Assembly (NCBI GenBank): GCA_021773645.1
Contig: JAJFJU010000019.1
Span: 1-55,933, forward strand
DNA from: Gammaproteobacteria bacterium
GTDB lineage: Bacteria; Pseudomonadota; Gammaproteobacteria; HK1
Reading direction: 5' to 3'
Length of the DNA: 55,933 nt
A program made the position numbers and the translations under genes. The notes below the pieces were generated by a model. That model was not told the origin of the DNA. It was given only the letters and a program-made list of their open reading frames with translations, and did no database searches. This document shows, piece after piece, positions 49,193-53,180 of the stretch (within the stretch, counting starts at the first letter, position 1; each line of letters begins with the position of its first letter).

Positions 49193-50226
49193 GCCGCGCC
49201 GTATAATTTTGCGGTGAGATCGACAATGGGAATAACCCGCTCATAATCCATCCGAGTCGGACCAATGACCCCGAGCACCCCCAACACCTCACCATCCACC
49301 TCATAGGGAGAGGTCACCACGCTACAGCCATCGAGCACCGAGTGACCTGATTCCTCGCCGATAAACAGCTGCACCCCGCGGGCCATCATGGAGTGGTCCA
49401 GTAGATAAAGAATATCCCGCTTGCCGTTAAAGGCTTCAAAAATCTCCCGCAACTGTCCCATATCCAGCAGATCGCCATATTCCATCAAATTGGTCTGCCC
49501 CGAAACCACCAGGTCATCATCTTCCGGACCGCTGAAAAAAGCCCGCTCGGCCATGCGAATGGCAGCCACCATGACGCTATTAAGGTGCTTGCGGGTGTCC
49601 TGCATATCTTTCAGCAACGCCTCCCGCATCTGGCGCAGATCGCGACCGGCACAAATATCATTCAGGTAGTTTGCCGCCTGCTCCAGTTCGGCCGCGCTGT
49701 ACTGGCGGCCGGTGGTGATGATGCGATTCTCTACCTCACCATCATCACTGATCAAAATCGCCAGCACCTGATTATCGGATAACTTCAAAAATTCCAGCTG
49801 ACGCACCGCAACTGGGCGACGCTTGGGCACCATCACCAAGCCGGCCAAATGCGTGAGGTCCGAAAGCAGGGAGGAGACTTCAGCAGTCAGGCCCGAGGGG
49901 CTTTGACGGGCATCAAGGCCCGTGTGGATACGCTTGACCTGTTGGGAATCGGGCCCCTGGATGGTCAGCAAAGAATCCACAAACACCCGGTAACCCAGGG
50001 AAGTGGGAATACGCCCAGCCGAGGTATGGGGCGAGGCCAGCAAGCCCAACTCTTCCAGGTCGGCCATCACGTTACGGATGGTCGCCGGACTCAGATCAAG
50101 CCCGGAACCACGAGCCAGCGTGCGTGAACCCACCGGGCTCCCATCGCGTATATATTGCTCCACCAATACCTTAAGCAGATGCCGCGCCCGGGGATTTAGT
50201 GCCTGTTCTGCAATGGGGGAATTCAT
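49174..50226 (-). CDS. hrcA: Heat-inducible transcription repressor HrcA
   Basis: HrcA represses heat-shock operons by binding CIRCE elements. The N-terminal winged helix has RARHLLKVLVEQYIRDGSPVGSRTLAR and SPATIRNVMADLEELGLLASPHTSAGRIPTSLGYR, and the GAF-like domain ends with GVLGVIGPTRMDYERVIPIVDLTAKLYG. The ATG at 50226 gives 350 aa, near the family norm; the open frame extends 37 codons further without family similarity. It leads hrcA-grpE-dnaK-dnaJ and has a CIRCE site at its own promoter. Confidence 0.97.
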   Translation of the reverse strand: MNSPIAEQALNPRARHLLKVLVEQYIRDGSPVGSRTLARGSGLDLSPATIRNVMADLEELGLLASPHTSAGRIPTSLGYRVFVDSLLTIQGPDSQQVKRIHTGLDARQSPSGLTAEVSSLLSDLTHLAGLVMVPKRRPVAVRQLEFLKLSDNQVLAILISDDGEVENRIITTGRQYSAAELEQAANYLNDICAGRDLRQMREALLKDMQDTRKHLNSVMVAAIRMAERAFFSGPEDDDLVVSGQTNLMEYGDLLDMGQLREIFEAFNGKRDILYLLDHSMMARGVQLFIGEESGHSVLDGCSVVTSPYEVDGEVLGVLGVIGPTRMDYERVIPIVDLTAKLYGAALKQPH

Positions 50227-50243
50227 ATGAAAAGCTCTCGGCA

Positions 50244-50272
50244 TTGCCCTGCAGCAGTGAAATGCAGGGCAA
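50244..50272 (-). repeat. 10-bp stem in the hrcA 5' untranslated region
   Basis: TTGCCCTGCA and TGCAGGGCAA form a perfect 10-bp stem around a 9-base loop, 18 bases before the hrcA start. In the transcript it is preceded, not followed, by a T-run, so it is not a normal terminator. It may limit hrcA translation or stabilise the mRNA. Confidence 0.6.
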
Positions 50273-50327
50273 AAAATACGGCGTATGAGATTAAATCCAA
50301 TGCTGACAACAGCGTGGATCGGCGCCG

Positions 50328-50356
50328 AATTTAGCACTCTGCCTAGCCGAGTGCAA
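50328..50356 (-). promoter_or_regulatory. Sigma70 promoter of hrcA overlapping CIRCE
   Basis: TTGCAC (4 of 6) and TAAATT (4 of 6) are separated by 17 bases. The -35 lies in one CIRCE arm and the -10 overlaps the other. Repressor bound at CIRCE would therefore block polymerase directly. Confidence 0.55.
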
Positions 50357-50357
50357 A
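50331..50357. promoter_or_regulatory. CIRCE operator (HrcA binding site)
   Basis: TTAGCACTC, nine bases, then GAGTGCAAA. The consensus is TTAGCACTC-N9-GAGTGCTAA, so 17 of 18 arm positions match with the exact spacer. It lies between divergent hrcA and nadK, about 105 bp before the hrcA start. Confidence 0.9.
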
Positions 50358-50379
50358 GGACAATTTAGGGGTTCAATTG

Positions 50380-50395
50380 GCGCACTCCGGTGCGC
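50380..50395. repeat. Inverted repeat upstream of nadK
   Basis: GCGCAC-tccg-GTGCGC is a perfect 6-bp inverted repeat 43 bp before nadK. It could be an operator or a leader hairpin of the nadK transcript. No clear nadK promoter is visible. Confidence 0.35.
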
Positions 50396-50438
50396 GTGTT
50401 AAGTTTCGCCTCCTGTACTTGTTGGCCGGGAATAATGG

Positions 50439-51308
50439 ATGTTTAAACGCATAGGGCTAGTGGGAAAACGACAGGTTTCAGAGGTCGTTGAAACCCTCAA
50501 AAAACTGATCGCCTATTTGCAGGCACATCGGGTCAACGTCATGGTTGATACCGATAACGCACCTCATCTGACTGACTCAGGGGCGAAAACCGCTGACCTG
50601 CCCACCATGGGGCGGAAATGTGACCTGGTGATTATCGTCGGGGGTGATGGCACCTTTCTGCGCGCCGCCAGCACCCTGGTCGACTACGAAATTCGGTTGC
50701 TGGGCATTCATATGGGCCGAGTCGGCTTTCTCACTGACCTGACGCCACCACGTATGTGTGAGCAACTCGATCAGGTGCTGGCGGGGGAATTTACCGAAGA
50801 GCGCCGTTTTCTCCTGCGCACCACCATCCTGCGCGACGGCGAGGCCCTGAGCGAAGTAGATGCCCTCAATGACATCGTTGCCCATAATGCCAACATCGCC
50901 CGTTTGATTGAGTTCGAAACCTACATCAATGGCCAACTGGTGAGCTGTCAGCGCTCCGACGGTTTGATTGTCTCCACCCCCACTGGCTCCACCGCCTACG
51001 CCCTCGCCGGCGGTGGTCCCATCCTCCACCCCAGCCTTGATGCCATCGTATTGGTCCCCATCTGCCCCAACACGCTGAGTAGTCGCCCCATCGTAGTAGA
51101 TGGCGATAGTGAGATAGAAATTGTCATTGGCCCACGCAGCCCGACCCGGGCGCAACTGGCCAGCGATGGCCAGATCACGTTTGATCTAGAGCCTGGGGAT
51201 CGCATCCTGATTCATAAAAAACGCCAGCATCTGCATCTGATACATCCCCCTGGGCACGATTATTTCGCCACCCTGCGGGACAAGCTAGACTGGAATCTGG
51301 AACACTAG
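50439..51308 (+). CDS. nadK: NAD kinase
   Basis: NadK phosphorylates NAD to NADP using ATP or polyphosphate. It has IIVGGDGTFLRAA (GGDGT motif, about residues 66-78), LGIHMGRVGFLTDL, LNDIVAHN-type NE/D region, and the glycine-rich GSTAYALAGGGPILHP with SSRPIVVDGDSEI. The 289 aa are normal. GGGA lies seven bases before the ATG. The last base of its TAG stop is also the first base of the MITE-like element that follows. Confidence 0.97.
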   Translation: MFKRIGLVGKRQVSEVVETLKKLIAYLQAHRVNVMVDTDNAPHLTDSGAKTADLPTMGRKCDLVIIVGGDGTFLRAASTLVDYEIRLLGIHMGRVGFLTDLTPPRMCEQLDQVLAGEFTEERRFLLRTTILRDGEALSEVDALNDIVAHNANIARLIEFETYINGQLVSCQRSDGLIVSTPTGSTAYALAGGGPILHPSLDAIVLVPICPNTLSSRPIVVDGDSEIEIVIGPRSPTRAQLASDGQITFDLEPGDRILIHKKRQHLHLIHPPGHDYFATLRDKLDWNLEH

Positions 51309-51517
51309 GAGCCTATCCGATTTAGGCGCTCGTAGTGAGGGGAAGACATTTTGAGACAGATTTTTTGGTCGTTTGAGGCCAATAGTCATCGCTATTAAAC
51401 GAAAAGGAGCAGGAAATATGGCCAAAATGCCTTTTCCGCACGACTACATGGATGTAGGAGGCAGGGCGGCGCAGGATGCCAAAGCCGAGCAGAGCAGTCC
51501 TAAGTCCGACAGGCTCC
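51308..51517. mobile_element. MITE-like element between nadK and recN
   Basis: The left end GGAGCCTATCCGATTTAGG (51308-51326) and the reverse complement of the right end (51499-51517, GGAGCCTGTCGGACTTAGG) agree at 16 of 19 positions. The 210-bp interior has a hairpin AATAG-tcatcg-CTATT at 51381-51396, nested in CGTTT/AAACG, and one small ORF. There is no transposase. It fills almost the whole nadK-recN gap. The ends differ from those of the element at 11262, but the central AATAG/CTATT hairpin is shared in design. Confidence 0.65.
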
Positions 51518-51522
51518 CTTAA
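51418..51522 (+). CDS. 34-codon ORF inside the MITE-like element, coupled to recN
   Basis: The ATG has AGGAG eight bases upstream, an excellent ribosome-binding site. The frame ends in TAA whose last base begins the recN ATG (TAATG). The peptide starts MAKMPFPHDY and ends SDRLP. I do not recognise it. The recN start itself has only a weak ribosome-binding site, so this ORF may feed ribosomes to recN. Alternatively it is a chance frame carried by the element. Confidence 0.4.
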   Translation: MAKMPFPHDYMDVGGRAAQDAKAEQSSPKSDRLP

Positions 51523-53180
51523 TGCTGACTCATCTGGCGGTACGTGATTTCGCCATCGTCTCAGAACTTGAGCTGGAATTAGAGCCCGGCATGACCGTCC
51601 TCACCGGCGAAACGGGGGCAGGCAAGTCCATCCTGGTAGATGCGGTAAGCCTTGCGCTGGGCGAGCGTGGCAATGCCCATATGGTGCGCCAGGATTGCGC
51701 CCGGGCCGAAGTTAGCGTCACCTTTGATCTATCGGCCCAATCCCACCTGCAAGCCTATCTCGAAGAACAGGAACTGGAAGACGGGGATGCCGAATGCATA
51801 CTGCGGCGCACCCTCAGCAAAGAAGGCCGCACCCGTGCCTACGTCAACGGCCGCACCGTCCCGCTCGCTCTGCTGCGAGAATTGGGTGACCAACTAATAG
51901 ATATCCATGGCCAACATGCTCATCAATCGCTACTACACGCGGCCACCCAACGACAAATTCTCGATGACTGGGGTAACCATGGCTCACTGCTAGCGAGCTA
52001 CCGCGCCACCTGGAAGGCGCTAAAAGCGCTGCGCGAAAAACTGTCTGGAATTATTCCCGAAGGTCCCGATGGCGACCTGGAGTTTCTCCGTTATCAAGCC
52101 AGTGAACTGGAATCACTGGCACTCAGCGCCGGAGAAACGGCTGAGCTCGAAGTAGAATTCAAGCGCCTTAATCATGCGGGGGAACTCCAGCTTGAATGCA
52201 ACCGCGTACTGGAACAGCTAACGGGTGATGAGGCCTGCGCATCTAATTGGCTACAACACAGCGTTTCCACCCTCAGTCGTCTGGAAAGCATCGACCCCGA
52301 TCTCAGCCCTGTCAGAAAGTTGCTGGAAGACGCCGGCGTGCTAGTGGAAGAAGCGGTCAGCGAATTGCAGCACCACATCAGCCACGTAGAAGTGGATGGC
52401 GCACGTCTGCAATCCATAGGCAATCGGCTGGAGCATATTCATGACCTGGCACGCAAACATAAGCTCTCCAGCGATGAATTACACACGGTCTTGCCCATGC
52501 TACAGGCGCAAATCAGCGAGCGGGAAAATGCCAGCGCACATATTGCTGAGCTAGAAACGAAGATTGCCGAGACCGAGGAAAAACTACTTAAAAGTGCGGC
52601 CACCCTGCGCCAGCAGCGCCAGAAGACAGCCAAACGACTGGCACAAAGGCTTAGCCAAAATATCGCCCAACTCGGTATGGCGGGTGGTCGCTTTGAAATT
52701 CAGGTAAAGGCACTCGAAGTGGCTGGGCCAAGTGGCGCCGATGAGATCGAATTTCTGGTCAGCGCCAATACAGGGCAAGCCCCTCAAGCCCTGGCCCGGG
52801 TCGCCTCTGGTGGCGAGTTATCACGCATCAGTCTCGCCATTCAGGTCATCGTCGCCTCAGACAATGGTGTGCCATCGCTGATTTTTGATGAGGTGGACGT
52901 AGGAATCGGCGGCAAGGTAGCGGAAATCGTCGGTGCCCGTCTGCGCACCCTGGGGAAGAAACGTCAGGTACTGTGCATCACCCACCTGCCCCAGGTAGCC
53001 GCACAGGCGCACGCTCATCTACAAGTCAGCAAGCGCCAGCGTAAAAATGAAACCCAAACCCAACTCACGGTATTACAGAAAAAAGAGCGTGTTCAGGAAA
53101 TAGCACGCATGTTGGGGGGGGTAGAAATCAGCCCGGAAGCCGTGGCCCATGCACGGGAAATGCTGGGTGCGAATGAATAA
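51522..53180 (+). CDS. recN: DNA repair protein RecN
   Basis: RecN is an SMC-like ATPase acting in double-strand break repair. It has Walker A TGETGAGKSILVDA (about residues 30-43), a central coiled coil (about 150-360), the ABC signature LARVASGGELSRISLAIQ and Walker B LIFDEVDVGIGGK, then CITHLPQVAAQA. At 552 aa it matches E. coli (553). I saw no LexA box upstream, where the MITE-like element lies. It is convergent with fur, 12 bp apart. Confidence 0.97.
   Translation: MLTHLAVRDFAIVSELELELEPGMTVLTGETGAGKSILVDAVSLALGERGNAHMVRQDCARAEVSVTFDLSAQSHLQAYLEEQELEDGDAECILRRTLSKEGRTRAYVNGRTVPLALLRELGDQLIDIHGQHAHQSLLHAATQRQILDDWGNHGSLLASYRATWKALKALREKLSGIIPEGPDGDLEFLRYQASELESLALSAGETAELEVEFKRLNHAGELQLECNRVLEQLTGDEACASNWLQHSVSTLSRLESIDPDLSPVRKLLEDAGVLVEEAVSELQHHISHVEVDGARLQSIGNRLEHIHDLARKHKLSSDELHTVLPMLQAQISERENASAHIAELETKIAETEEKLLKSAATLRQQRQKTAKRLAQRLSQNIAQLGMAGGRFEIQVKALEVAGPSGADEIEFLVSANTGQAPQALARVASGGELSRISLAIQVIVASDNGVPSLIFDEVDVGIGGKVAEIVGARLRTLGKKRQVLCITHLPQVAAQAHAHLQVSKRQRKNETQTQLTVLQKKERVQEIARMLGGVEISPEAVAHAREMLGANE

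Follow-up and report, generated by a model that had tools for sequence, protein, structure and literature searches.

A structured MITE-like element at the nadK–recN junction of a gammaproteobacterium that may supply a leader reading frame to recN

What happens to two adjoining genes when a short repeated element settles exactly on their border? The question is raised by the junction of nadK and recN in the window, by which we mean the whole stretch of 55,933 nucleotides analysed here (contig JAJFJU010000019.1 of a gammaproteobacterial assembly, GCA_021773645.1). There, a 210-bp unit begins on the last base of the nadK stop codon, and a small reading frame within it ends on the start codon of recN. 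The genome of the window (G000) was compared with two congeners, G001 and G002, and with sampled genomes of the class.

Results

The element between nadK and recN

The features of the junction are as follows.

50439–51308, plus strand: nadK (NAD kinase), stop codon TAG; PF01513 and PF20143
51308–51517, plus strand: MITE-like structured element in its long form, with a body of 162 bp and a 48-bp module
51308–51326, plus strand: left terminal inverted repeat, matching the right arm at 16/19 positions
51404–51409, plus strand: Shine-Dalgarno-like AAGGAG of the leader ORF
51418–51522, plus strand: leader ORF of 34 codons, its TAA sharing one base with the recN ATG
51440–51487 (approximate), plus strand: 48-bp module inside the element, belonging to a repeat family of its own (hairpin CTACATGGATGTAG) and missing in 161-bp copies
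51499–51517, minus strand: right terminal inverted repeat, pairing with the left arm at 16/19 positions
51518–51521, plus strand: CTTA between element and recN, four bases, its TA a possible right target-site copy
51522–53180, plus strand: recN; PF02463

The first base of the element is the G of the nadK stop codon TAG (position 51308), and its end at 51517 leaves four bases before the recN ATG at 51522. These positions confirm an earlier note on this DNA, which had described a 210-bp unit with 16/19 terminal repeats starting at the nadK stop and ending four bases before recN. The right-hand TA is displaced by two bases in this copy. The sequence shows that the terminal G of the element rebuilds the nadK stop as TAG.

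No promoter-like site was found on either strand of 50150–51700 (shuffles give 1.0), and the two terminator-like sites of this region are both on the minus strand within nadK; a promoter or terminator inside the element was therefore rejected. The earlier note had seen no LexA box at recN, and indeed no CTGT-N8-ACAG site with at most one mismatch occurs between 42549 and 51754, while the 14 matches across the window compare with a chance mean of 14.7. No displaced LexA box is visible, and LexA control of recN was set aside because there is no site nearby.

The element belongs to a repeat family of the genus

BLAST with the 215 bases as query matched the own genome 39 times. Fifty-seven copies with both ends were parsed in the genus, 24 in G000, at least 12 in G001 and at least 21 in G002; the set consists of fetched stretches, covers the G001 and G002 matches in part, and fell from 58 to 57 when one double count was dropped. 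The lengths are 160–164 bp in 41 of the 57 copies, 209–212 bp in 8 and 257–265 bp in 5, and the others measure 66, 91 and 185 bp. All but the two truncated copies (66 and 91 bp), 55/57, span 160–265 bp. The length classes are a base form of 161 bp plus one or two modules of ~48 bp.

The ends of the element are GGAGYCTGTCGG. Places resembling the terminal inverted repeat number 51 in G000, 27 in G001 and 84 in G002, against 0, 1 and 0 in the reversed control. The dinucleotide TA stands at the left flank of 33/57 copies, at the right flank of 26/57 and at both of 17/57, where the flank TA rate is 0.063. The units are thus short and multicopy, do not code for a transposase, carry a 19-bp terminal inverted repeat and TA flanks, and have empty counterpart sites at recN and at two further genes, one dgt-like and one for an M17 aminopeptidase. 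The earlier suggestion of a MITE-like element is upheld by the many copies with the same ends (the search that it had proposed gave the 24 parsed in the own genome), by the TA flanks and by the empty site in a congener. On sequence grounds, we regard the unit as a probable non-autonomous, TA-targeting, hairpin-forming mobile element.

The same note had proposed a search for a transposase using these ends; none was found, by family, PF13358 alone being sought. This IS630-type domain (DDE_3) is absent from all three genus genomes (G000–G002) and present in 2 of 7 other genomes, and no end resembling the terminal repeat, at up to 4 mismatches, lies in the six loci of PF13358 matches (G055, G059). 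An IS630/Tc1-derived MITE finds no support: the three genomes of the host genus have no DDE_3 gene, and the G055 and G059 loci have no such ends. For G000 and G001, the listed places include no pair of lone ends at the spacing of an IS. Two wider pairs of terminal repeats were rejected as autonomous insertion sequences, since what lies between the repeats is a VWA/PEP-CTERM gene and a PurT gene at L098 in G060 (2415 bp) and the gene of an EamA transporter in G144 (1108 bp).

Stretches of the internal module also match alone in the genomes G025, G051, G012 and G038. In G025, some of the lone stretches are 48–51 nt apart; a tandem array was rejected, as Tandem Repeats Finder found none when run on a different G025 locus, L035. 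The ~48-nt repeat, with a CTRCATGGATGYAG hairpin, is also found in the distant genome G060 (L093 and L098), where its position inside the element agrees to within a few bases, and two G000 copies (L028 and L030) have a reversed relative at another place.

The family keeps one full-length hairpin and is spread across the class

The RNAalifold analysis of 35 members from nine genomes gave one full-length imperfect hairpin of 50 pairs, 33 of them with two-sided changes. Pairs are kept in 93.6% of cells, compared with 83.7% in shuffled alignments and at most 53.5% in slid ones, and two-sided cells number 145, whereas no slid version exceeds 47. Because the alignment tested is also the one that yielded the structure, it has an advantage over the slid versions, and the sequences are related; the two-sided counts are the stronger part. 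The covariation supports a model of one conserved full-length hairpin. The window element has a predicted fold z of -5.26, and none of 200 shuffles is equally stable. The plus strand is predicted to be more stable than the minus strand in 34/35 members (means -78.2 and -63.4 kcal/mol), which suggests that the strand bearing the ORF is constrained, either as RNA or as single-stranded DNA. On the plus-strand structure, the excess of G-U over A-C is large (147 to 37), but it is small (35 to 25) when the count is confined to the 25 pairs that the structures of the two strands share.

The copies L111 and L120 combine the outer stem of one subfamily with the inner hairpin of another. In L190, L192 and L199, part of both terminal arms is changed jointly (from GGAYTTAGG-type to CGAGAATRG-type) and the inverted repeat is retained. 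The motifs CGTAGCGAG and CGCAGTAGA, at element positions ~24–32 and ~129–137 of the copy L016, are near-invariant in the aligned members and lie in or beside an internal loop near the stem base, as if bound by a protein.

A covariance model from the 35 members, calibrated briefly, was run on 274 sampled genomes of the class and has matches (E up to 1e-4) in 65, three of them being those of this genus; going by the named records, the class is Gammaproteobacteria. Neither window positions 50400–52000 nor L016, L187 and L191 match an Rfam model at E up to 1. The short form matches one plasmid record, Pseudomonas sp. MPC6, over its whole length (70.8% identity), in a stretch that bears no gene annotation, and the distant member L191 matched neither a plasmid nor a phage record. 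In G144, the single contig C1 (2.96 Mb) has 73 terminal-repeat matches at up to 2 mismatches.

The nadK–recN site in the congeners

The comparison of nadK–recN gaps proposed in the earlier note gave one empty site and one occupied at the same dinucleotide. In G001, the nadK TAG and the recN GTG overlap by one base and no element is present. The idea that the element replaces a nadK–recN gap does not hold for the genus, as far as it was seen, since this element-less congener has no gap at all. Nor is there support, in the form proposed, for the idea that the element rewired recN by tying it to nadK transcription: because the stop and start codons overlap where no element is found, the link between the two genes most likely predates the insertion.

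In G002, an element of another subfamily than the window copy follows the same nadK TA dinucleotide, and the spacing to the recN ATG is exactly four bases in both G000 and G002. The two elements are 86.8% identical over 159 shared positions, and dS between the two genomes is 1.07 for recN and 0.85 for nadK. This slower-than-neutral change was not read as constraint because the copies look non-orthologous. In a tree of 55 copies, the G002 nadK–recN copy falls inside a set of ten (support 100/97) that lacks the window copy, and forcing the two into one clade lowers lnL by 33.8 (AU p 0.047). The element of G002 may stem from an insertion of its own or owe its sequence to conversion.

A single ancestral insertion, whose bodies diverged through gene conversion, has a somewhat less than even chance in our estimate. 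The identical four-base spacing before recN favours one insertion followed by conversion, and a chance double hit would be unusual, as matching flanks in two genomes occur at only 2 sites among the 57 parsed copies (nadK–recN, and L026 with L138). However, the nadK–recN copies belong to different subfamilies and a single clade is disfavoured, whereas the L026–L138 pair does group in the tree (support 97/88). At C7:138322-138706 of G002, family ends enclose ~385 bp upstream of nadK, and two elements seem to flank nadK there.

The leader ORF and the translation of recN

The leader ORF of the window, MAKMPFPHDYMDVGGRAAQDAKAEQSSPKSDRLP, ends as TAATG on the recN start, and that of G002 has 36 codons and ends as ATGA on recN. 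The predicted anti-SD pairing of the leader is -7.9 kcal/mol in the window and -9.2 in G002, compared with -2.5 in both for the own site of recN, and recN at the empty site of G001 has -6.6 kcal/mol (duplex energies computed against a typed anti-SD string). Coordinates and energies agree with the 34-codon ORF with a good AGGAG, the TAA overlapping the recN ATG and the weak ribosome site of recN that had been described before. In the predicted fold, the leader SD and ATG are mostly paired (mean unpaired probability 0.25).

Compared with the congener without the element, the insertion separated nadK and recN by 210 bp and distanced recN from a GGGAG-like sequence in the end of nadK. The insertion put a site of stronger predicted pairing ahead of a leader that ends on the recN start; where nadK and recN had overlapped, the element now offers a leader ORF. 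The proposal of a small ORF coupled to recN stands as regards its geometry, which recurs in the second species; the coupling itself we infer from this arrangement. In the long copies L009 and L010, the frame is closed by a TAG at 24 codons, 25 bases short of the element end, where the window has CAG. As this T/C position forms a G-U or G-C pair of the hairpin, the switch between TAG and CAG keeps the structure intact.

Start codons lent to other genes

At C13:165129 of G000, an element lies inside a gene with the Pfam domains HD and HD_assoc, which we take to be dgt-like. The congeners have MSAELAPYAASD and MPMELAPYAASD where G000 has MAKMAFPQQSSPKFDRLLAPYAASD, and the next 381 residues are 93% identical. 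The remnant of the native GTG frame runs for 21 codons before it meets a stop within the element; beyond the element, the next in-frame ATG, GTG or TTG is codon 51. At C26:24411 of G002, an element lies in the M17 aminopeptidase gene; the congeners have MENNLLDAG and MENSLLDAG and G002 has MAKMAFPQQSSPKSDRLLDAG, the next in-frame ATG, GTG or TTG beyond the element is codon 60, and the protein is 79–81% identical to those of the congeners with intact native starts.

In both genes, the insertion hit a CTA codon that had been codon 6 of the original reading frame, and the element is the only early in-frame source of ATG, GTG or TTG for both genes. Because the genes downstream are intact, we infer that the starts supplied by the element are used; the predicted N-terminal peptides are MAKMAFPQQSSPK. 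In L140 (a TldD-type gene) and L024 (a lysine-decarboxylase-like gene), the element frame continues in frame into the gene, and a native ATG may still serve. In L166, the element ORF ends as ATGA on a CNNM/CorC gene.

Start signals and neighbouring genes across the copies

Among the 57 copies, a frame open through the right end occurs in 13/28 copies with a near co-oriented downstream gene versus 7/29 without one (p 0.10), and an ATG in 23/28 versus 17/29 (p 0.08). Such a gene follows 6/12 AGGAGC copies and 20/40 other copies (p 1.0; 52 copies, the five without a readable SD being left out). The tree-corrected tests had just three pairs on supported branches and were therefore powerless. These tests lend no significant support to selection for coupling across the copies (Fisher p 0.08 to 1.0). 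AGGAGC is present in 12/57 copies, among them all four site-compared cases (recN twice, dgt-like and M17), which is a post hoc observation and not a test.

AGGA followed by ATG at 5–12 bases is found in 40/57 copies of the genus versus 3/29 members elsewhere, which indicates that the start signals are not what conserves the family; the frame is open through the right end in 20/57 and 1/29, respectively. The element completes the stop codon of 11/27 co-oriented upstream genes and likewise of 8/21 convergent downstream genes. For the former, 11 completions compare with 10.8 expected under a uniform choice of TA in the gap (23/27 usable), so stop-codon targeting was rejected as nothing special.

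Discussion

We consider it probable that the element entered a TA in overlapping nadK and recN genes, that the stop codon was rebuilt and that a leader ORF now feeds recN by reinitiation. The element would have entered the TA of the nadK stop where the two genes overlapped stop-on-start, and its terminal G restores the TAG. It contributes AAGGAG and an ATG near its right end, with a frame open through the right terminus and ending on the recN start. Ribosomes would then most likely start at the element ATG on the nadK–recN transcript, stop at the TAA and reinitiate on recN. The conserved hairpin probably serves the spread of the element itself or RNA processing, not recN. The leader is supported by the ends shared among copies together with the empty site of G001 and the occupied one of G002, by the dgt-like and M17 genes, which get their only early start from an element and yet stay intact, and by the leader SD, predicted to pair more strongly than that of recN in a region (50150–51700) with no promoter-like site. 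Against it count the leader SD and ATG, mostly paired in the predicted fold, the associations across the copies, which are not significant, and the scarcity of SD plus ATG in members elsewhere.

That the unit is ordinary conserved intergenic DNA is practically out of the question: the empty site, the many copies and the TA flanks contradict it and already refute it, and no supporting point was found. A neutral passenger, with recN using its own weak site or reinitiating after nadK and the leader ORF an accident, seems to us unlikely but deserves weight. The right arm of the family in this genus holds AAGGA and ATATGG, from which such an ORF could arise by accident. Neither the open ORF, the ATG nor AGGAGC is significantly associated with gene orientation, start signals occur in just 3/29 family members elsewhere, and a position at the stop codon follows from TA targeting where gaps are short (11 cases against 10.8 expected). 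Against a passenger, the stop-start geometry is common to two species with elements of different subfamilies, and the dgt-like and M17 genes appear to depend on the element start.

The hairpin could instead act on the transcript, through RNase III-like processing or stability, and lower recN or uncouple it from nadK. The sense-strand fold is predicted to be very stable, the plus strand is favoured in 34/35 members, and PMC2229807 reviews hairpins of this kind as regulators, a role proposed for NEMIS and ERIC. However, insertions are found in both orientations relative to the neighbouring genes, and for pairs that the two strands share the G-U excess is just 35 to 25. We hold such an action on the transcript, too, to be rather doubtful. 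Less likely still, though wider in reach, is that a class-wide family of ~161 nt is held as one structured strand, maybe recognised folded, and that one of its lineages has become a mobile translation-start module repairing the genes it hits. This draws on the paired arms replaced as matched sets, the nearly invariant loop motifs and the near-constant length of ~161 nt; recognition would perhaps be of folded RNA or single-stranded DNA and not of linear ends.

With the leader reading frame as the preferred explanation, the junction offers natural, testable cases of selfish DNA tolerated at gene borders and gene starts, in which one end of the element would regrow a stop codon and the other give a ribosome site and a start codon. 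The finding also draws attention to a structured repeat that is widespread in Gammaproteobacteria and gave no match in Rfam. Fusions between host genes and the ORFs of structured MITEs are already in the literature. Our literature search found neither this family nor a MITE shown to supply gene start codons against empty sites; with sequence words from the inner motifs and the module no paper matched, and with those from the ends no paper was, by title, on bacterial repeats.

The element behaves like ERIC, NEMIS, RUP and the Rickettsia palindromic elements as these are described. The ERIC/IRU, RU-1, RU-2 and RU-3 elements of enterobacteria have the same plan, being small and multicopy with TA-type termini, a long RNA hairpin and ORFs that form fusions, some of them N-terminal, with host genes (PMC2759123, PMC2229807). 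In these descriptions they are set apart by their sizes (RU-1 127 bp, RU-2 168 bp and RU-3 103 bp, against the 161-bp base form) and by the ERIC terminal repeat of 7 contiguous pairs, against 16/19 in the window; the passages of the two papers do not describe start-codon supply checked against empty sites. The Correia/NEMIS elements of Neisseria, with a 24-bp terminal inverted repeat, TA and proposed RNase III processing (PMC2229807), are described as falling into a short and a long class, set apart by an internal piece of ~50 bp, like the 161 and 209 bp here. However, they measure 107 and 155 bp, live in another class of hosts and have an IHF site in the internal piece, which here is a hairpin module. 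RUP of Streptococcus pneumoniae, also non-autonomous and of TA type, is ascribed there to IS630-Spn1 (PMC2229807), whereas the genus studied here has no PF13358 gene in G000–G002. The Rickettsia palindromic elements, as presented in PMC10969869, add a peptide by in-frame insertion into protein genes, whereas the element described here would supply a start codon and an N-terminus.
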